A stretch of 64,000 nucleotides of DNA, from assembly GCF_019038465.1 (NCBI RefSeq), contig NZ_JAFKRH010000046.1:1-64000 (forward strand). The letters are read 5' to 3'. Source of the DNA: Synechococcus sp. CCY 0621 (lineage in GTDB: Bacteria > Cyanobacteriota > Cyanobacteriia > PCC-6307 > Cyanobiaceae). The translations under genes were made by a program, and so were the position numbers. Below the pieces are notes generated by a model, which was not told the origin of the DNA, made no database searches, and saw nothing but the letters and a program-made list of their open reading frames with translations. Below are positions 8,222-64,000 of the stretch, piece after piece (position 1 is the stretch's first letter; each line of letters opens with the position of its first letter).

Positions 8222-9067
8222 TCAACCGATCGGAACGCCGATGAACGGATCGGCGGGAGGATCGCGCGATTCCAACAGAAATCGCGGTTGACAATCATAC
8301 CAGGCGGCCCCAGGGAAGATGTCCGTTGGGTAGCCCACCCGCAGCAGGCAAAGCCCCTGGGGCGGGGCGGCCTCCTTCACTGCGTGGCGGGCGCCGCTGC
8401 GCCAGCGGTGCAGGAACTCCTCGGCCTCAAGGCGGCCCTCCCCGACGGCCACCAGCTGGCCCATCAGCAGGCGCACCATGCCGTACAGAAAGCCGCTGGC
8501 CTGCATCTCGGTGACCAGCAGATCTCCCTGCCGCTCGATGTGCACGTCCTGAACGGTGGTGCGGGCATGGGCGCGGCGGCTGCCCGCCCTCTGGAAGGCG
8601 GAGAAGTCGTGCTCCCCCAGCAGAGCCTCCAGACAGCGGGCCATCCGGGCCTCGTCGAGGCGCCACTGGTAGCGATGCCAGCTCCAGGGGGCCAGGAACA
8701 GGTTGGGGCTGCGGCCGTTGAAGATCGTGTAGCGGTAGCGCCGGTAGGTGGCGCTGAAGCAGGCGTGCCAGTCGGCGGGGACCTCGGCGGCGGCCCTCAC
8801 CCGGATCGTGGGCGGCAGGCGGCCGTTGAGAGCCTTCGCCCAACGGGACACGGGAATGGGGCCGGAGGCATCGAAATGCACCACCTGGGCTGCGGCATGG
8901 ACGCCGCTGTCGGTGCGGCCCGCGGCCACGGCCTGGGCGGGACGGTGAGGGTCGAGGGCGGCGATGGCCCCCTCCAGGGTTTCCTGAACGCTGCTGTGGC
9001 CGGACTGACGCTGCCAGCCGTGAAACGAGGAGCCCTCGTACTGCAGCGAAAGGGCGATCCTTTTCAG
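8222..9067 (-). CDS. truA: tRNA pseudouridine synthase A
   Basis: TruA makes pseudouridine at positions 38-40 of tRNA anticodon arms. The catalytic aspartate lies in [11 protein letters not shown]. The family's N-terminal block ([17 protein letters not shown]) is present in frame upstream of the first GTG at 8929, so a start there would remove an essential part. No ATG, GTG or TTG precedes that block at a sensible distance. The best candidate is the CTG at 9067, which overlaps the rplQ stop codon as CTGA and gives 281 residues. The start is inferred; the enzyme identity is clear. Confidence 0.88.
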
Positions 9068-49782: not shown

Positions 49783-49815
49783 GATCCAATCAACTGTGTG
49801 CGCCTCCGCAGGGCC

Positions 49816-50397
49816 ATGCTTACCCTGCCCCGCCAACTCAGCCAAGCGCTGCGGCTCACGCCGGCCCAGTTCGCCGAACTCTGTGCGGCCAATCCGGAAG
49901 CGGTGCTGGAGCTGGCGGCTGACGGGCGTTTGATCGAGATGACCCCTGCAGGCGGCGAAACCGGCCGGCGCAACAACCAGCTGGCTGTTCAGCTGGGTCT
50001 GTGGGCCCGCACCCAGCCCGGTTGGTGCGTGTTCGACAGCTCCACCGGTTTCCTGCTGCCGGATGGCTCCGTGCTGAGTCCGGATGCCAGCGCGGTGCGG
50101 CTGGAACGCTGGCAGGCCCTCTCCAGCGAAGCGCGCCAGGGTTTTCCGCCCCTCTGCCCGGATCTGGTGGTGGAGCTGGCCAGCCCATCCGACCGGCTGC
50201 CTGACCTGCGCCGCAAGATGGCGACCTACCAGGCGAATGGGGCCCGGCTGGGCTGGCTGCTGTTGCCCGAAACCCGTGGCGTGGAGGTTTGGCACGCCAG
50301 TGGCGAACCGCAGCGGCTGGAGGGCCTGGCGGTGCTGGAAGGGGAGCCGGAACTCCAGGGGCTGCGGCTGGATCTGGCGGAGCTCTGGGACGGCTGA
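49816..50397 (+). CDS. Uma2 family (DUF820) putative restriction-fold nuclease
   Basis: The 193-residue protein matches Uma2: AANPEAVLELAADGRLIEM, then GGETGRRNNQLAVQLGLW, with the PD-(D/E)XK residues in LSPDASAV, PDLVVELASPSDRL and RRKMATYQANGARLGWLL. The family is heavily expanded in cyanobacteria and of unknown role. A GTG at 49798 could add six residues. It lies 33 bp after the monooxygenase. Confidence 0.85.
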   Translation: MLTLPRQLSQALRLTPAQFAELCAANPEAVLELAADGRLIEMTPAGGETGRRNNQLAVQLGLWARTQPGWCVFDSSTGFLLPDGSVLSPDASAVRLERWQALSSEARQGFPPLCPDLVVELASPSDRLPDLRRKMATYQANGARLGWLLLPETRGVEVWHASGEPQRLEGLAVLEGEPELQGLRLDLAELWDG

Positions 50398-56344: not shown

Positions 56345-59300
56345 TCACACCGCCAACGCCAACTCCGGCACGAACGCCGCCGGTATCGCCCGCTGCAACC
56401 GCCAGCGAATCGCCATCGGCCGCTCCCCCTCGTGGCTCACGTAATCCGCGAACCCCAGACACAGAAACGGCAGCGTCACCCCGCCGCGCTTGCTTTCCTC
56501 CCGCACGAACAGCATCACCCGGCTGCCACGCTCGGCGTGGTGGATGTAGCGCTGGCCCGTGGGTGAGGCTTGCCGAGTGTTGCTCTGGCTCTCCCAGTGG
56601 AACTCCCACGGGGAGATGGCGTAGTCGTTGTAGCGGGTAGTGGGGGAGAACAAGCGTTCGGATTTCTTGAGGGTGATGAAGAAGACATCGCACTGAGTTG
56701 CCCGATCAAACAACACCCCCGACTGGCCGGTGGTTTGCTGGTTATCGGTGATCAACCCAAAAGCGGCGTAGATCTCGGCGCGGCTGTAGCGGGCGTGGAG
56801 AGCCAGGGGCACGGGTTGATCCCACACCAGTGGAGGGGCGAGGTGGTCGGTGCGCTCCAACAGGAGTGCGAACAGTTCGCGCAGCTCATCGAGAAAGGCT
56901 GGACAGGCCCAGAGACGATCCAGCGCGTCTTGCAGAGCAAGGCGATCCGGCGACGATCCCCAGAGCTGGAGCAGCAGCATGCGCCAACGCCGGCGGTCTG
57001 TTTCGCTCAGGTTCCGAACCTCAGGCGGCTGTCCATGGGCGAGGCCCTGCAGGAGGAACGAGAGGCGGTCGACGTCGTCCAGGTGGAGCAAACGCCCCAC
57101 TCCCCGCCCCAGCCGCATTTCATCGTCGCTGGGCTCCCCTGAGGCCGCCCCGGCCAACCACCCCAACTCCCGCTGCAGCAACGCCCAGGAACCCGCCACC
57201 CTGTAAAACTCCCCCTGCTCCATCCCGAGCCCCTCCAGCAACCCCGCCAGCGAACAGCGCCCGAGGCGGCGGGCCTCGGCGAGCAGCTGGGGCCGGCGGC
57301 TGGGCAGCGACTCGCGCAGATTGGCCAGCACCCGCTGGCTCGACACCCGATCGAGCTGGAGGCTGCAGCCGGCCGGCAGGAAGGGAAAGCCTTCCTTGAT
57401 CTGCTGCTCCAGCTGGTCGCGCGTGCCGCCGAGCAGGGCGCGGTAGCGCAGATCAAAGCGGAAGCTCCGGTGCGCCTGGCCGATGAAATCCAGCACAGTG
57501 AGGCAGCTTTTGCCCCGGCAGAGGCGCAAACCGCGGCCGAGCTGCTGCAGGAAAACGATCGCGCTCTCGGTGGGCCGCAGGAACAGCACCGTGTCGATCT
57601 CGGGGATGTCGAGGCCTTCGTTGAACAGATCCACGGCGAACAGGATCTGCAGCTCGCCGGCGCGCAGGCGGCGGATCTGCTCGGCGCGCTCGTCACGGGG
57701 GCTGGACGCATCCAGGGCGGCGGCGCGCAGGCCGGCGGCCACGAACTTGCGGGCCATCCAATGGGCGTGCTCCACGCTCACGCAGAAGCCCAGGGCCCGC
57801 ATCGAATCCAGGTTGGTGATCTTGTCTGCCAGTTCGCGCAGGATCAGGCGCAAGCGGGCGTCGTCGGCGGTGTAGAGGTTGGACAGGGCTTCTGTGGCGT
57901 AGCCGTTGCGGCGCCACTCGATCCGCGACAGGTCGGTGCCGTCGTGGAGGCCGAAGTAGTGGAAGGGTGTCAGAAGGCCCTGCTCCAAGGCGCTCCAGAG
58001 GCGCAGCTCGGCGGCAATCCGGCCACTAAACCAATGGAGGATGTCCTCGCCGCCGGTGCGCTCGGGGGTGGCGGTGAGGCCCAGCAGCAGGACGGGCGCC
58101 AGGTGGCGCAGCCAGCGCTCGTAGCTGGCGGAGGCGGCGTGGTGGAACTCATCGACGATCACCACGTCGAACGTGTCCGGCGCCAGGTCCAGCGGATCCA
58201 GCCCAGCGAGCGACTGCACCGAGGCGAACACGTGGCGCCACTGGCTGGGGCGCTGGCCGTCCACCAGCAGTTCGCCGAAGGAGCCATCGCGCAGCACCTG
58301 GCGGAAGGTGGCGAGGCTCTGATGCAGGATTTCGCGCCGGTGGGCCACGAACAGCAGACTCGGGTGCCCCGGACCGCCCTGGCGGGCGTAATCGAGGGCG
58401 GCGATCACGGTTTTGCCCGTGCCGGTGGCGGCCACCACCAGGTTGCGCCAGCGGCCATGGAGGCTGCGCTCGGCGGCGAGCTTTTCGAGGATCTCCTGCT
58501 GGTAGGCGTAGGGGCGGATGTCGAAGAAGCTGAGCGGGGTGGCGTCAGCCGCCGAGTCGCCCGCCGACTCCTCGCGCACGGCCCGATCAAAGCGGCGTTG
58601 CTCCAGTTCGCTGGCCCGGTAGGGCTCGAACTCGCCCTCCTCCCAGTAGCTCTCAAAGGCGGCCTGGAACTTGGCGAGGATCCCCTCGTTGTCGTGGGCG
58701 GAGAGGCGCACGTTCCACTCCAGGCCGTCGTGCAAGGCGGCGGTGGAGAGGTTGGAGGAGCCGATGTAGGCGGTGGAGGCAGGGGCGGCGCCCGAGAGGC
58801 CAGGCCGATGGAACAGCCAGGCTTTGGCGTGCAAGCGGGTACGGCGGGTGTCGTAGCTGACGCGCACCTCGGCGCCATGGGCCACCAGCCAGTCGAGGGC
58901 GCGGCGATCGGTGGCGCCCAGGTAGACGGTGGTGAGCACCCGCAACGGACGGCGGGGCTGTGCCCGTAGATACCCATCCAGCGCCGGCTGAAGCAAGCGC
59001 AGGCCGCTCCACTTGATGAAGGCGCAGAGCAGGTCGATCCGCTGGGCGGAGGGGATTTCGTGGATCAGCGCCTGCCCCACCGACGGTTCGCCGCTGGCGT
59101 TCACCAGCAGGGTGCTGTCGGCCAGGGGGATGAGCGGGCGGATGGTGGCGGCCTGGCCGGGCAGGAGTGCCGTGGATCGGATCTCCGAGAGCAGCCGGGC
59201 GGAGGGGTGCAGAAGGTCGGCTTGGGAGATGGCGCGGGGTGCCTGGCTCTGGAGCAGGCCCACCAGCTGGTTCACCAGGGCCAGCTGGTGCTCAGGGGTG

Positions 59301-59491
59301 GAGCCACCGCTCAGGTGCTCCAGGGCAACGCGCGCCAGACCCGCGAGGTGCCGGGCCAACAGGCGCGGGGCTTCCTGGGGATCCAGACCGTCGGCGGCGA
59401 ACAGGGTTTCCTGGAGTTGGCGCAGCTGTTGCTCCAGGCCCTCGGTGAGGAGTTGCTGGTAGAGGCCGGGGGGTGGGGCCTGGTCGGACAT
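56345..59491 (-). CDS. PLD nuclease, SF2 helicase and DUF3427 fusion protein
   Basis: The 1048-residue protein has three parts. Residues about 140-300 form a phospholipase-D-type nuclease with RLHAKAWLF (H221, K223) and GSSNLS (244-249). Residues about 325-680 form an SF2 helicase with ATGTGKT (355-361), DEFHH (447-451), GLTATPER and QQLGRGLRL. The C-terminal third is DUF3427-like, with LFSPTTRYNDYAISPWEFHW. Such fusions occur in bacterial defence islands and are suspected to restrict foreign DNA; that is inference here. Its 3' end is the source of relics 1-4 among the neighbouring toxin modules. Confidence 0.9.
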   Translation of the reverse strand: MSDQAPPPGLYQQLLTEGLEQQLRQLQETLFAADGLDPQEAPRLLARHLAGLARVALEHLSGGSTPEHQLALVNQLVGLLQSQAPRAISQADLLHPSARLLSEIRSTALLPGQAATIRPLIPLADSTLLVNASGEPSVGQALIHEIPSAQRIDLLCAFIKWSGLRLLQPALDGYLRAQPRRPLRVLTTVYLGATDRRALDWLVAHGAEVRVSYDTRRTRLHAKAWLFHRPGLSGAAPASTAYIGSSNLSTAALHDGLEWNVRLSAHDNEGILAKFQAAFESYWEEGEFEPYRASELEQRRFDRAVREESAGDSAADATPLSFFDIRPYAYQQEILEKLAAERSLHGRWRNLVVAATGTGKTVIAALDYARQGGPGHPSLLFVAHRREILHQSLATFRQVLRDGSFGELLVDGQRPSQWRHVFASVQSLAGLDPLDLAPDTFDVVIVDEFHHAASASYERWLRHLAPVLLLGLTATPERTGGEDILHWFSGRIAAELRLWSALEQGLLTPFHYFGLHDGTDLSRIEWRRNGYATEALSNLYTADDARLRLILRELADKITNLDSMRALGFCVSVEHAHWMARKFVAAGLRAAALDASSPRDERAEQIRRLRAGELQILFAVDLFNEGLDIPEIDTVLFLRPTESAIVFLQQLGRGLRLCRGKSCLTVLDFIGQAHRSFRFDLRYRALLGGTRDQLEQQIKEGFPFLPAGCSLQLDRVSSQRVLANLRESLPSRRPQLLAEARRLGRCSLAGLLEGLGMEQGEFYRVAGSWALLQRELGWLAGAASGEPSDDEMRLGRGVGRLLHLDDVDRLSFLLQGLAHGQPPEVRNLSETDRRRWRMLLLQLWGSSPDRLALQDALDRLWACPAFLDELRELFALLLERTDHLAPPLVWDQPVPLALHARYSRAEIYAAFGLITDNQQTTGQSGVLFDRATQCDVFFITLKKSERLFSPTTRYNDYAISPWEFHWESQSNTRQASPTGQRYIHHAERGSRVMLFVREESKRGGVTLPFLCLGFADYVSHEGERPMAIRWRLQRAIPAAFVPELALAV

Positions 59492-59799
59492 GGGAGACCC
59501 GCTTCCTGAACCGCTGTACTTTCCGTGGATCGCCAGCCAGGAAGGGGACTGGGCTGTGGCGATGTTATGCGGGTCCGGATAACGTGTCAGCCAGCATTGA
59601 CGACCAAAGCCGGATGCTTGCTGCAGCGAGGGATTTGCTCAGTGAAGCAAAGATCCTTTAGTCGTCTTATGCCGAAGGAGGGATAGAAAGGGGTGGTTTA
59701 TGCGGATCCGTCCAATCAGCGTTCGAAGGATGTGTCGTCCTTGATGGGAGCCAGCAAGGCAGCGTTGCGTGGCCGTAGCCGAGAGGCTACAGTTGGCTT
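59492..59799. other. Intergenic region between the helicase and the cassette array
   Basis: About 308 bp without a convincing gene. A 25-codon frame (GTG at 59582, ending LAAARDLLSEAKIL) reads like protein and could be a gene remnant. It should hold the helicase promoter and the left edge of the higBA cassette. No attC or attI site could be placed with confidence, although a GCGTTCGAA resembling an attC end occurs near 59720. Confidence 0.4.
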
Positions 59800-60102
59800 A
59801 TGGTTGAAGTCCGCCAGACAGAGCGGTTCGTCCAGTGGCTTGCGGATCTGCGTGATCTGAGGGCCAGGGCGAAGGTTCAGGCCAGGATCGAACGTCTTAT
59901 CGGCGGCAATCCTGGTGACGTCAAACCCGTAGGGGCTGGCGTTTCGGAGCTGCGGATCAACTATGGCCCTGGATACAGGGTCTACTACCTGCAGAGGGGC
60001 TCCGCATTGATCATCCTGTTGGCTGGATGAGACAAGTCCTCACAAGTCAAGGACATCGATGAGGCCCTTCTGCTGGCAGATAACCTGACGGAGGAGATTT
60101 GA
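59800..60102 (+). pseudogene. higB: HigB/RelE-family toxin gene with an in-frame stop codon
   Basis: The first 76 codons (EVRQTERFVQWLADLRDLRA, then INYGPGYRVYYLQRG and LIILLAG) match HigB-like RNase toxins. The TGA at 60028-60030 sits exactly where the family has the second Gly of LLAGGDKSSQ, and the next codons DKSSQVKDIDEALLLADNL continue the family tail in frame to a second stop codon at 60100-60102. A single GGA to TGA change explains it. The true stop codon overlaps the higA ATG as TGATG. Confidence 0.85.
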
Positions 60103-60410
60103 TGAAAGTCAAGACCAGCCCCTACGACGTTGCCGAACAGCTACGAACTCCGGCAGAGATGGCGGCCTATCTGGAGGCCTGCATCGAGGAGGCGGATGGA
60201 GATGTTGCATTCATTGCCAAAGCCTTGGGTGACATCGCACGCGCCCAAGGGATGACCAAAGTGGCCAAGGATTCAGGACTATCCAGAGAGAGCCTCTATA
60301 AGGCATTATCGGGGGAGCGAAGCCCGAGCTTTGACACCATCCTCAAAGTCGTATCGGCACTGGGTCTGAAGCTGAGCGCCAGTGTGAGAAGTGAGGCGGA
60401 GGTGTCTTGA
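60102..60410 (+). CDS. higA: HigA-type antitoxin
   Basis: The 102-residue protein has TSPYDVAEQLRTPAEMAAYL at the N terminus and a Cro/CI helix-turn-helix in GMTKVAKDSGLSRESLYKAL, followed by SPSFDTILKVVSALGLKL, the layout of the HigA partner of this HigB type. It is intact while its toxin carries a stop codon. attC site 1 follows 52 bp later. Confidence 0.87.
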   Translation: MKVKTSPYDVAEQLRTPAEMAAYLEACIEEADGDVAFIAKALGDIARAQGMTKVAKDSGLSRESLYKALSGERSPSFDTILKVVSALGLKLSASVRSEAEVS

Positions 60411-60462
60411 GCTCTGCTGAAGAGGCGAAGGTCAGCAATCGCTGCCTGTTGAGAAGGACACC

Positions 60463-60552
60463 TTCGAACAAGCCCCTGGAGTGGACAGGCCGCCAGCAAT
60501 TCTGCTTCGATACCGATAACTCCTTGCCTGCCACTCAGGGGCAGCGTTAGGC
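60463..60552 (+). repeat. Integron attC site 1
   Basis: The 90-bp imperfect palindrome has outer box TTCGAAC on the left and GTTAGGC (perfect GTTRRRY) on the right. Inner arms AAGCCCCTG and CAGGGGCA pair, as do TGGACAGGC and GCCTGCCA, leaving the extrahelical base typical of attC. It closes the higBA cassette and is nearly the same as attC 4. Confidence 0.85.
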
Positions 60553-60557
60553 ATGCG

Positions 60558-61340
60558 ATGAGCATCACCAGGCCGTACCGAAGAACTTGTCGCCAGTTCG
60601 CAGACGGGAGCTACTCCGAGGGCGGCCGGTGGATGTATTTATTGCATCCGAAGTACGCGAAAGACCCACGGCACTATGTGCGCGCCTTCCTACTCATCCA
60701 GCAGGACGTGCTCGAGCTCTTCTCTTATGTTGAGCCGAGCGATGCCAACCTTAGTACGTACTCGCACCGCATCCAGCAACTACTGATGCGATCGTGTGTC
60801 GAAATCGAGGCCAACTTCACTGCAATATTCCTCGACAACGAATACAGAAGGGCCACGTCAGGCCAGAACCTGAACATTGGCGACTACAAGCTGATTAATC
60901 TGTCTCACAGCCTTTCGGCATACCAAGTGCGAATCCCGGGGTGGAAGGGCGCAGCTGGAATCCGGCGTCCATTCGCGCCTTGGCTGTCGGATCACCCATT
61001 ACCCTGGTACCAGGCGTACAACAAGTCGAAACATAACCGCCACGAGAACTTTCACTTGGCTACCTTCGACTCAATGATGGACGCCTTTTGTGGCTTGAAC
61101 ATCTTGCTTTCAGCTCAGTTTATGGGCGAAGAATACGGGCCAGGCAGCAAGTCTCTTTCGATCAGTGGGGCGTGCTACACGTACGAGGGCGATGACGGTA
61201 TGGAGCCGTCCATTGGCGACATGCTTCGTATTAAGTTCCCTGAGGACTGGCCCGTTGAGGAGAGATATGAGTTCACGTGGCCTGCCATTTCGAGCCAAGA
61301 TGACCCCTTCGAGAATTTTGATTACGCGGCTCATGCCTAA
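60558..61340 (+). CDS. HEPN-like cassette protein, putative RNase
   Basis: The 260-residue protein has no clear named family. PWYQAYNKSKHNRHENFHLA (150-169) holds R161-x4-H166, the Rx4-6H pattern of HEPN RNases, with a polar residue after Arg, and lies in a predicted helix after SCVEIEANFTAIFLDNEYRR. HEPN proteins are often toxins or anti-phage effectors; that role is inferred. The ATG lies 5 bp after attC 1, and its TAA is inside the attC 2 outer box, as is common for cassettes. Confidence 0.72.
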   Translation: MSITRPYRRTCRQFADGSYSEGGRWMYLLHPKYAKDPRHYVRAFLLIQQDVLELFSYVEPSDANLSTYSHRIQQLLMRSCVEIEANFTAIFLDNEYRRATSGQNLNIGDYKLINLSHSLSAYQVRIPGWKGAAGIRRPFAPWLSDHPLPWYQAYNKSKHNRHENFHLATFDSMMDAFCGLNILLSAQFMGEEYGPGSKSLSISGACYTYEGDDGMEPSIGDMLRIKFPEDWPVEERYEFTWPAISSQDDPFENFDYAAHA

Positions 61341-61424
61341 CATCGCCATACACCTGAGCCGCCACCAAAGTGATTTTTCTGTGTCGCCCGGCTCACTGCG
61401 GCCAGGTGATGGCGAGCGTTAGAT
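61335..61424 (+). repeat. Integron attC site 2
   Basis: A textbook site: outer boxes GCCTAAC (RYYYAAC) and GTTAGAT (GTTRRRY) are perfect, and inner arms ATCGCCAT / ATGGCGA and ACACCTGAGCC / GGCTCACTGCGGCCAGGT pair imperfectly. It differs in sequence from sites 1 and 4. Confidence 0.92.
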
Positions 61425-61439
61425 GCATAACTAAAATCA

Positions 61440-62285
61440 GTGACTAAAACGATGGAAAGCCTTCGCGAAGTTTGCGTCGAGAGAATTGCCACTGAAATCA
61501 ATGATGCATTTGACGTGGAGTCAAATGCCATGAATGATGTTGACAGGAACGAGGATCTGCTTTCAAATAGACTGATCCATTCTATCCGCAACGCTTTGGG
61601 TCAGCCTTGCGGCCATCAAGGGGAGATTAATCGCAGGAGCAACCTCTACATGGCAGTTCAGGCGTACAAAGCCACGGGACGACTAGAGCAAGACCACGGT
61701 GATATTGCAATTGTTGTGACTGACTTAGATCATCGCATCACTGGAACGGGCTTTTACGAGGCCAAGGCTGAATCTCATGACGGCTTGTATCCATCATATA
61801 AAATGAGGCAGCTCAGGCGACTTGAGTCAAAAACTCCTCGCCTGGCTGTTGTTATGTACGAGAGACATGCAAAGCCTGTGAGCGACGATGCGTATTTTTG
61901 CTCGCTGCCCTATCTTGCGGCAAGAAAGATCACACCATTAAGGCATTGTCGAGTTCTTCCTGCATCTTGGGTTAGGCAGTTTCCCAGGCTTGAGGCTGCA
62001 GCGAGCCAAATACTGCCGACCTCTTTTGGACACCACTTTGTTACAAAGTACCTTCTGGGGCGAGATCTCGATTATTCACGGACTTCGGCAAACGCAATTG
62101 AACGCTGGGTTCGCGTAACAAGAAGAGCGGTTCCTGTTATCCTGGAAATTGTGATTTCTCGAAATCCAGACTGGCAATACACAGGTAATCCTGTACGAAT
62201 CCTTCCTGGATCCATAGCAACAGATCTTCTATCCACTAGGCGTGAGCCACTTGCTCTTGAACCTCCCATTAATCCCAGCATCTAA
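61440..62285 (+). CDS. Cassette protein with PD-(D/E)XK-like nuclease signature
   Basis: The product has 281 residues from a GTG; ATG at 61452 is an alternative. GDIAIVVTD (D88) followed by GTGFYEAKAES (E107-x-K109) resembles the PD-(D/E)XK catalytic core of restriction-type nucleases; the N-terminal part is helical. No named family recognised. The TAA lies within the attC 3 outer box. A defence role is an inference from fold and context. Codon use is more AT-rich than the core genes. Confidence 0.7.
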   Translation: MTKTMESLREVCVERIATEINDAFDVESNAMNDVDRNEDLLSNRLIHSIRNALGQPCGHQGEINRRSNLYMAVQAYKATGRLEQDHGDIAIVVTDLDHRITGTGFYEAKAESHDGLYPSYKMRQLRRLESKTPRLAVVMYERHAKPVSDDAYFCSLPYLAARKITPLRHCRVLPASWVRQFPRLEAAASQILPTSFGHHFVTKYLLGRDLDYSRTSANAIERWVRVTRRAVPVILEIVISRNPDWQYTGNPVRILPGSIATDLLSTRREPLALEPPINPSI

Positions 62286-62364
62286 CATCAAGATACAGAA
62301 GACGGGAGCGGAGCTTGCTTTTGATGCTGAGGCTATCCCCCGCTTCTGATCTTGAGCGTTCGAC
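62280..62364 (+). repeat. Integron attC site 3
   Basis: 85 bp with outer box ATCTAAC (perfect RYYYAAC) and GTTCGAC (one deviation from GTTRRRY). The arms ATCAAGATACAGAAG and CTTCTGATCTTGA pair with a small bulge. Same orientation as the other sites. Confidence 0.82.
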
Positions 62365-62397
62365 AGACCAGAAAACAGACTTAAAAACTGATAAGTT

Positions 62398-62421
62398 TAT
62401 ACTGAAGTGAGCGGCAGGAGG
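62398..62421 (+). promoter_or_regulatory. Candidate -10 element and Shine-Dalgarno of cassette 4
   Basis: TATACT (62398-62403) in an AT-rich stretch and AGGAGG (62416-62421), 10 bp before the ATG of the CoiA-like gene, suggest that this cassette carries its own expression signals. No strong -35 box is visible. Confidence 0.4.
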
Positions 62422-62431
62422 CACCAACAGG

Positions 62432-63379
62432 ATGGGCAAAGAGATTCTCTACTCATTTGCAAATAATGAAAAAGGGGAACTTGTCAAAGCAGATGCGGCC
62501 CAACGGGGTGGTGCCTACTACTGCCCATCGTGCCATAAAGAGATGGTTCATCGAATGGGGGAAAAGGTCCGTCCTCACTTTGCGCACAAGAATCTTAGCC
62601 AGAATTGCAGCCCAGAGACAGTTCTACACTTTGGTTTCAAGAGGCTCTTGCATGAAAGAATCTCTAAGTCACTTCAGGCTGGGGAGCGAATATCGATACA
62701 ATGGAAATGCGAGGCATGCTGTGGCTGCCATTTGGGGAACCTGCTCAAGCGAACTGCTCATGCTGAGGAAGAGTACAACCTCGGGGCATGCAGGCCAGAC
62801 ATTGGGCTACTAAGCAAGGAAGGAGATGTTGTTGCAGCAATTGAAATTGTAGTATCGCATTCACCCGAACAATCAACTATTGAGTTCTACAAGGCAAATG
62901 GCATTCCATTGCTAGTCTTTAAGCTGAAGTCGGATACAGAGCTGAGCCGAGTCGAAGAAGAGGTTCTTAAGCCTGACATTGTGGATGTGTGTCTAAATCC
63001 GAAATGCCCTAAGTGCAATGAACACATGCCACGCCTCAAGCTACTAATCATCGATGGCAAGTGCTGGAAATGTCACTCCGCGATGAAGGTTGGCGCGTTA
63101 AGGGGAGACGCGGGGTATGAATGCGAATTTAACCTTGACCACATAGCCCTTGCAAATCGACACGGAGCCAATATTAAGACAAGATACAGCAAGACAGTTA
63201 GACATGGATACGCTGCGAACACGTGCAAGCGATGCAACGCATTTATTGGCGACCACTATCTTTTTGCAGACTATGTCGCAGCAGACGAGTACCCCAGAAC
63301 TGAACTTGACGCTGGTTACTATTGCCCTAATTGCTGTAATGAACCAGATGATGATTACGATGATATTACTGAGGATTGA
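62432..63379 (+). CDS. CoiA-like competence/nuclease family cassette protein
   Basis: The 315-residue protein has a zinc-ribbon opening (YYCPSCHKEMVHRMGEKVRP, then HFAH), then a restriction-fold core with CRPDIGLL (D123) and AAIEIVVSHS (E138), as in CoiA-like nucleases; the usual Lys/Gln two residues after Glu is Val. Further Cys pairs (CPKC, CWKC, CKRC, CPNC) suggest more zinc sites towards the C terminus. CoiA proteins act in natural transformation; a defence or DNA-processing role here is inferred. A good SD precedes the ATG. Confidence 0.75.
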   Translation: MGKEILYSFANNEKGELVKADAAQRGGAYYCPSCHKEMVHRMGEKVRPHFAHKNLSQNCSPETVLHFGFKRLLHERISKSLQAGERISIQWKCEACCGCHLGNLLKRTAHAEEEYNLGACRPDIGLLSKEGDVVAAIEIVVSHSPEQSTIEFYKANGIPLLVFKLKSDTELSRVEEEVLKPDIVDVCLNPKCPKCNEHMPRLKLLIIDGKCWKCHSAMKVGALRGDAGYECEFNLDHIALANRHGANIKTRYSKTVRHGYAANTCKRCNAFIGDHYLFADYVAADEYPRTELDAGYYCPNCCNEPDDDYDDITED

Positions 63380-63401
63380 CTTGACATTAATAGACGGGGC
63401 T

Positions 63402-63493
63402 GTCGAACAGGCCCCTCGAGTGGACAGGCCGCCTTCATCCCTGTGCTTCGCCACCAAAGGATCCTTGCCTGCCACTCAGGGGCAGCGTTAGGC
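63402..63493 (+). repeat. Integron attC site 4
   Basis: 92 bp, outer boxes GTCGAAC and GTTAGGC. The inner arms GTGGACAGGCCGCC and TCCTTGCCTGCCACTCAGGG are the same as in attC 1; only the central spacer differs. The shared arms suggest a common origin of these two sites. Confidence 0.87.
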
Positions 63494-63508
63494 CTTTGGA
63501 GTGCACCC

Positions 63509-64000
63509 GTGAGTAGTGAAATCTTTAACTGCCTCTTTCGTGAGCGAGCCGACATCTTTCGAGCGGCATTCTCGACGGTGTCCACTGATGTCTTCTACGA
63601 CCAAGAGAACAAATGTCTGCGCCATGCGGGTGAATACGGGATGTACCGTGAGTCAATTGTTCGGGACTTCTTAAAGTTCATTACTCCGCGCGGCCTTGAC
63701 GTTTCAACGGGATTCATCATTTCTGCTATGGAGGATGTGAGTACGCAATGCGACATCGTGATCTTTGACTCCAAGATGACGCCGATGTACGAGGAAGGCG
63801 ATCGACAACGGTTCTTTCCGATTGAGTCGATCTTTTGCGTTGGCGAAGTGAAGTCGAAGATATCAAAGCTGCAGTTCGCTGATACGCTGAACAAGCTTGC
63901 AGCAGTCAAGGCAATCGGCGAGAGAATTAAAAGCCCATCGGTGATTCGGAGAATGCATCCGGGCAACTTCGATCCAGTCAACTATCCCTTCGACCTTGTC
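63509..64000 (+). CDS. Cassette protein, DUF6602-like, PD-(D/E)XK-type signature (partial)
   Basis: The first 164 codons, from a GTG 16 bp after attC 4, run off the window. It has FRERADIFRAAFSTVSTDVF, QCDIVIFDSKMTP (D82) and FPIESIFCVGEVKSK (E113-x-K115), a restriction-fold metal site. It resembles DUF6602, from memory; no search was done. It is cassette 5 of the array. Confidence 0.7.
   Translation, partial: MSSEIFNCLFRERADIFRAAFSTVSTDVFYDQENKCLRHAGEYGMYRESIVRDFLKFITPRGLDVSTGFIISAMEDVSTQCDIVIFDSKMTPMYEEGDRQRFFPIESIFCVGEVKSKISKLQFADTLNKLAAVKAIGERIKSPSVIRRMHPGNFDPVNYPFDLV

Follow-up and report, generated by a model that had tools for sequence, protein, structure and literature searches.

On the reading of its recombination sites, the gene at 61440..62285 (+ strand) of the window, by which we mean the whole 64,000-nucleotide stretch of DNA analysed here, is part of a five-cassette integron array, and the 281-amino-acid protein that it encodes is, to judge from structure prediction, very likely to have the PD-(D/E)XK fold. 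Going by the libraries and literature searched, the family of this protein is a new and unnamed one of a known kind. We lean towards the protein being a stand-alone, metal-dependent PD-(D/E)XK defence nuclease that would tell foreign DNA by its structure or its modification; here we infer the cleavage, the defence role and the trigger.

The open reading frame of cassette 3 was found exactly where an earlier note on this DNA had placed it. It begins with a GTG codon, 22 bases past the crossover G, and its stop codon lies inside the R'' site of the cassette; an ATG at 61452, four codons downstream of the GTG, is an alternative start. No sigma-70-like promoter was found between the crossover and the start codon, a result that carries no weight either way. 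A DNA search of the 3.23 Mb host genome returned a single copy of the gene. The GC content of cassette 3 is 48% compared to 69% for positions 1-59000 of the window, and its GC3 is 44% compared to 87% for the adjoining mREase_IV gene, and, given this low GC, the cassette 3 gene was probably acquired from elsewhere.

The cassette array and its flanking genes

In all five cassettes, the first seven bases, counted from GTT, recur as an exact reverse complement close to the cassette's own end, as expected of a once-closed circle. The R'/R'' pairs lie at 59721/60463, 60546/61335, 61418/62280 (GTTAGAT/ATCTAAC), 62358/63402, and 63487/64349. Cassette 3 (61419..62358, + strand) starts with TTAGAT and has its own R'', ATCTAAC, at 62280, giving the 7-mer R'/R'' self-match. 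Its attC site (62280..62364, + strand), with R'' at 62280-62286 and R' at 62358-62364, is predicted to form a bottom-strand hairpin (z -3.8), and the R' of the preceding attC site, that of cassette 2 (61335..61424, + strand, hairpin z -4.9), is the start of cassette 3. All four attC sites that were folded gave bottom-strand hairpins, so that a bottom-strand hairpin with extrahelical bases, a feature of attC sites, is present for cassette 3, while the fifth site, that of cassette 5 at 64349-64433 of the contig, ends in a decayed R'. The boundaries used are the five of the array, among 13 GCGTT sites in 59000-66000. A closure scan of the 74-kb contig produced eight closures, four of them a linked chain at 59721-63487 and four unlinked; since ten shuffles of the same contig produced 17 closures, single unlinked closures were left uncounted there and at other loci. 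A strict attC scan gave one true site, and an ungapped-stem scan missed all known sites. Cassettes 1, 4, and 5 have attC sites of a single type, nearly identical to one another, and an exact pattern for them matches three times in the genome, all in this array; cassettes 2 and 3 have attC sites of different types, which suggests another source for these two.

Cassette 1 (59722..60546, + strand; attC 60463-60552, z -3.3) carries a weakly ParE-like ORF, with a likeness below the cut-off, and downstream of it an HI1420-type antidote gene (PF21716, 3e-29); the two genes, at 59800-60407, are probably a toxin-antitoxin pair, and neither is matched by PADLOC. Cassette 2 (60547..61418, + strand) encodes a 260-aa protein with no family match (gene 60558-61337), and cassette 4 (62359..63487, + strand; attC 63402-63493, z -1.5) a 315-aa CoiA_N-like protein (gene 62432-63376) that is cysteine-rich and, at its N-terminus, also similar to the beginning of DruB. 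Cassette 5 (63488..64000 in the window and on to ~64433 of the contig, + strand) encodes a DUF6602 protein with PADLOC matches to PD_DExK (1.8e-29) and NucC (5.8e-18), and is thus a second nuclease-like cassette in the array.

At the left edge of the array stands a homologue of PADLOC mREase_IV, a type IV restriction model (56345..59491, - strand; 1048 aa, 893 bits). To the right, at 64541-70495 of the contig (L006 9542-15493), lies the gene for a DUF4011 helicase of 1984 aa that includes an MTES_1575 nuclease domain and matched the PADLOC models PDC-S37 and Hhe with 1072 and 753 bits, respectively. With an mREase_IV homologue and a PDC-S37/Hhe-like helicase-nuclease on either side, the array looks, by its gene content, like part of a defence island. 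A Uma2 family gene, a family given in Pfam as putative restriction endonuclease, lies at 49798-50394 of the window. The earlier note had remarked that a methyltransferase partner is missing, and indeed none was matched in cassettes 1-5, the two large flanking genes, or four genes further upstream.

No intact intI was detected beside the array with the integron-integrase profile TIGR02249, which matched solely on contigs C15 and C21 of the genome, and there with no single match above the family cut-off. The best match (C15 133591-134327; L019 8592-9328) is in two pieces, in different frames and with one internal stop, so the integron integrase of the host genome, on a contig other than that of the array, looks broken or is the product of an assembly error. 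On C21 the match is weaker but intact, and the gene seems to be an ordinary recombinase, because TIGR02249 gives sub-cut-off matches in all 14 control genomes.

Relatives and conserved residues

The description of the protein as unassigned was borne out by the libraries, as no Pfam, NCBIfam, or PADLOC model matched it at E <= 1 and PHROGs also gave no match. Neither the Hjc profile nor the Shedu/DUF4263 profile matched, the protein having no Pfam family at E <= 1 and no family in PADLOC, and a search of solved structures by sequence returned chance matches only. The seven relatives (described below) that were scanned have no Pfam domain above chance and, like the window protein, no PADLOC family; the five in alignment A2 gave only chance-level lines, namely Pfam SID at 0.021 in one and two PHROGs matches at 0.074 and 0.12 in one member each; and no Pfam family was found for the Providencia relative (L017) or for L024. 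Profile comparison with cassettes 2, 4, and 5, a Uma2 protein, and SelO also yielded nothing, the best being cassette 4 with a probability of 1% and an E-value of 0.057, although with single-sequence partners this comparison carries little weight.

The relatives come from a cyanobacterial MAG (L002; best segment 58%, residues 5-281), from Pseudomonas sp. PIC25 (L003; 49%, residues 34-243), from two more genomes of the host's class, G262 (L005/L025) and G125 (L024), from an IMG/VR viral contig (L007), and from a Vibrio plasmid (L008). A further relative (L017) occurs in Providencia, Proteus, and Morganella, in 31 plasmid records of which 29 are predicted to be conjugative, and compared to the copy used here 26 of the 31 stand at 99% or above and five at 81%. 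Searches of phage records returned no relatives, as did searches of plasmids with the window and Pseudomonas proteins, and among viral contigs there was one contig with a relative. Two overlapping draws of genomes gave 2 positives of 386 (the host itself and G262) and 3 of 388 (the host, G125, and G1252, which is apparently the genome of L002), with G262, undrawn or missed, absent from the matches of the second draw. Draws centred on the Pseudomonas genome recovered only that genome itself (1/369 and 1/398).

An alignment was made of eight members including the window protein, the others being 17-59% identical to it. Thirteen columns are invariant in all eight (E38, K77, E83, G87, D88, G102, E107, A108, K109, Q124, Y140, G207, and L210), which gives the family signature (mostly W)-x-E-(D/N)-x-(I/L) ... 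(Y/F)-K ... E ... G-D ... G-x-x-x-x-E-A-K ... Q ... Y ... G-x-x-L. The earlier note had singled out D88 and E107-x-K109 as lying about 20 residues apart, and its numbering is right when counted from the GTG, with D88 standing 19 residues before E107-A-K109. On the + strand of the window, the codon of D88, in the G-D motif, lies at 61701..61703 and those of E107-A108-K109 at 61758..61766, while the codon of E38, the acid of the first conserved helix, is at 61551..61553 and that of Q124, which belongs to the helix following the ExK strand, at 61809..61811. The chance that the three named residues would all fall within 13 of 281 columns is ~8e-5, but L002, L003, and L007 were fetched by peptide patterns holding EAK, which favours E107 and K109 in those rows, so the independent weight lies mainly on D88 and on the members retrieved with a profile or with tblastn (L005, L008, L017, and L024).

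The settings of the relatives are varied. The Vibrio relative, which has DUF3265 and toxin-antitoxin genes around it, is preceded by GTTATGT at 7955 of L008, and its stop codon is directly followed by ACATAAC at 8760, the first of three occurrences in that stretch. With this matching GTTATGT/ACATAAC pair, the Vibrio relative too reads as an integron cassette; the pair was read by eye, the closure scan having missed it because the second attC half is absent. At L008 8760-9100, the attC site seems to be interrupted just after R'', perhaps by an insertion element. On the viral contig, the relative has an Rz-type lysis gene on one side and a terminase small-subunit gene on the other; 1.7 kb upstream of it, across the lysis genes, is a type II-like DNA methyltransferase gene strongly matched by PADLOC MTase_II (L007 3178-4221, 1.7e-121). 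The Providencia plasmid relative is near umuDC and a DNA polymerase III theta-subunit gene. The Pseudomonas relative is preceded by an NA37 gene and a protein without family; this gene for a 37-kD nucleoid-associated protein and that for the familyless protein of 443 aa, at L003 3330-5788, possibly form one operon. In the cyanobacterial MAG, the adjoining Uma2 gene matched PADLOC PDC-S03 (2.8e-77) and an HNH gene with a weak likeness to PtuB is nearby, and in L025 DUF433, DUF5615, and an HNH gene with PtuB likeness are near the relative. In L024, the relative has a TPP-enzyme gene on one side and genes for DUF2887 and enoyl-CoA hydratase on the other, with nothing defence-like among them. Neither a forward closure of the window type nor, among the neighbours scanned, a methyltransferase was found at L002, L003, L024, and L025, and no DNA methyltransferase is listed in the annotation surrounding the Vibrio and Providencia relatives.

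Predicted fold

An AlphaFold2 model built on four sequences had a mean pLDDT of 57.7, with residues 71-140 at 75-89 (ten-residue means). The elements of the model are H34-52, E69-77, H80-86, E89-95, E100-110, H122-131, and E136-140, of which the helix at 34-52, holding E38, is of low confidence (pLDDT < 50). The PD-(D/E)XK core has the same order of strands and helices as this model, and its helix-strand-strand-strand-helix-strand topology was matched in the prediction, with the first helix at pLDDT < 50. The Asp and the (D/E)-x-K in neighbouring core strands, also a feature of the fold, are present in the model and in 8/8 members. The motif is thus in predicted strands, as the earlier note had it, with D88 at the edge of strand 89-95 and E107 and K109 inside strand 100-110, and Q124 falls in helix 122-131.

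When the 965 chains of a Foldseek list were aligned to the model with VIA-align, 31 reached Z >= 5 and none reached Z >= 8. Rows 1-8 are archaeal Hjc, the best being 2eo0 with a Z of 7.5 at 3.1 A over 101 residues (model residues 70-208), followed by RecU (5.9), SPARDA nucleases (5.8, 5.7, and 5.1), I-Ssp6803I (5.7), and D212 (4.8), while human Rep15 takes up the remaining three of the top 17 (Z 5.9, 5.7, and 4.8). We take the other 14 of these 17 best rows (Hjc, RecU, SPARDA, I-Ssp6803I, and D212) to be PD-(D/E)XK nucleases. According to the tool, models that lack a clear match typically reach a best Z of 7-8, so the Z of 7.5 is not decisive by itself. The restriction enzymes R.SwaI, PaqCI, and HinP1I were among the weaker rows. 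Foldseek itself gave nothing at E <= 0.001 against the PDB, where human Rep15 ranked first, and nothing at E <= 0.001 against viral models, where YqaJ-like, UL24, and one PD(D/E)XK entry were listed. A second model, with the phage-contig member first, was too poor for searching (mean pLDDT 37.6), and it has the same element order up to the helix after the ExK strand. The fold assignment is therefore based on topology, motif position, and invariance taken together. The earlier reading of the protein as PD-(D/E)XK nuclease-like gained from Hjc, RecU, I-Ssp6803I, D212, and SPARDA in the best rows, at moderate Z and with Rep15 mixed in, and from a motif that is invariant in distant relatives, and no fold prediction in another class appeared.

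The Hjc motif is D...ExK, and Hjc, which supplied the best structural rows (2eo0, 4tkd, 2wcz, and 1gef), resembles the cassette 3 protein as a single polypeptide with this motif. It differs in that the listed chains are 116-130 aa long compared to 281 aa here, with an identity of 9-13%, and in that the cassette 3 protein has no Pfam match.

Proposed function and its alternatives

The roles of the D, E, and K residues and of the accessory residues are known from the PD-(D/E)XK superfamily. In the cassette 3 protein, D88 and E107 would hold the metal, K109 would position the attacking water, and E38 and Q124 would complete the active site. Residues ~69-140 would form the catalytic core, and the later part, with its conserved G207-x-x-L210, would probably serve substrate choice or assembly. 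Foreign DNA would most likely be told by structure (ends or branches) or by base modification and then cut, the gene acting as a one-gene defence module that may move on integron cassettes, plasmids, and phages. The choice of target by structure or modification is proposed because no methyltransferase was found in the settings scanned, save at a distance in the viral contig, and the view of the earlier note that a nuclease here would need some other means of telling foreign DNA is a reasonable one. Support for a role in defence would come from gene content, namely the mREase_IV, PDC-S37/Hhe-like helicase, and NucC-like cassette 5 neighbours in the array and its flanks and the PDC-S03 gene beside L002.

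Shedu is a system of one gene and no methyltransferase, and, as is proposed for the cassette 3 protein, it is a stand-alone PD-(D/E)XK nuclease. In the source consulted, Shedu (SduA) is described as a PD-(D/E)XK defence nuclease that senses DNA ends via its own extra domain (PMC12904381), which gives a precedent for the proposed way of working. The cassette 3 protein, unlike Shedu, matches no Pfam or PADLOC model, and the absence of Shedu from the structural rows shown excludes nothing.

Of the other explanations, a modification-dependent nuclease, similar to type IV enzymes, would cut modified DNA only and so would also need no methyltransferase. We hold this to be unlikely, if the most credible of the alternatives: it would agree with the lack of a matched methyltransferase nearby, with the mREase_IV homologue next to the array, and with a conserved C-terminal part as a possible reader, but no domain was matched in the window protein, nor above chance by Pfam in the seven relatives, and the neighbouring mREase_IV homologue is encoded separately, on the opposite strand. 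The Hjc resolvases in the top structural rows, with RecU after them, and the position of the Providencia relative near umuDC and the theta gene would also suit a DNA-structure nuclease (a junction resolvase or an end or branch cutter) acting in the recombination or repair of mobile elements and not in defence. This seems rather improbable, since Hjc, a small representative of the fold, may owe its top rank to its size, and the scattered distribution (2/386 and 3/388 genomes, the host included) and carriage on integrons fit defence better.

The NucC-like cassette 5 and the addiction-type antidote gene of cassette 1 indicate that genes of the abortive-infection or toxin type are stored in this array, and the cassette 3 protein could likewise be an effector or toxin, an inactive nuclease that on infection destroys host DNA or RNA, but cassette 3 has one long gene and no sensor or antitoxin gene, making this quite improbable. 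A conventional type II restriction enzyme, with its methyltransferase elsewhere in the genome or recently orphaned, would account for R.SwaI, PaqCI, and HinP1I in the weaker structural rows and for the strong MTase_II match upstream of the phage-contig relative, yet it is very improbable given that no methyltransferase was found among the scanned neighbours of the window gene and of L002, L003, L024, and L025, or in the annotation near the Vibrio and Providencia relatives. That the protein is not PD-(D/E)XK at all, its model fitting merely a common sheet-helix arrangement, as the Z values below 8 and the Foldseek list headed by Rep15 could suggest, we also consider most improbable, because the catalytic residues occupy the positions that the fold requires, and relatives of as little as 17% identity keep them unchanged.

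The stand-alone defence nuclease that we favour would join a class of genes already described, as integrons as stores of antiphage cassettes have been published. As summarized in a review (PMC12409362), at least 16 of the 179 cassettes of the V. cholerae integron are antiphage and 9 of 57 tested V. parahaemolyticus cassettes are protective, and the same review refers to antiphage cassettes in Vibrio and mobile integrons reported by Darracq 2025, Kieffer 2025, and Getz et al. The cassette 3 gene resembles these in that they are small cassettes and its Vibrio family member reads as one; it differs in lying in a genome of another phylum, with the gene also in class-mates of the host. VP1805 and VP1823, restriction endonuclease-like proteins described from the V. 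parahaemolyticus integron (PMC10734457), are, by their description, of the same fold class in an integron array. In the literature searches, integron cassettes together with phage defence and restriction or nuclease returned the review PMC12409362 alone, the four accessions or locus tags of the Vibrio and Providencia family members were not mentioned, and no cyanobacterial integron was named in titles found for integrons, gene cassettes, cyanobacteria, and Synechococcus.

More tentatively, and on comparison of sequences and their settings, this one-gene, methyltransferase-free family may act against phages and plasmids via DNA structure and may have crossed between Vibrio and cyanobacteria as a cassette, with spread by conjugative plasmids and phages. 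The finding extends the range of small genes carried by integrons by an unnamed nuclease-like family, in an array that lies among matches to defence models. That integrons store defence genes, an idea tested in Vibrio and mobile integrons in the papers cited, could be examined elsewhere by means of one small gene. If the proposed function is true, the family would represent a compact nuclease that makes the choice between self and non-self within one 281-aa chain.
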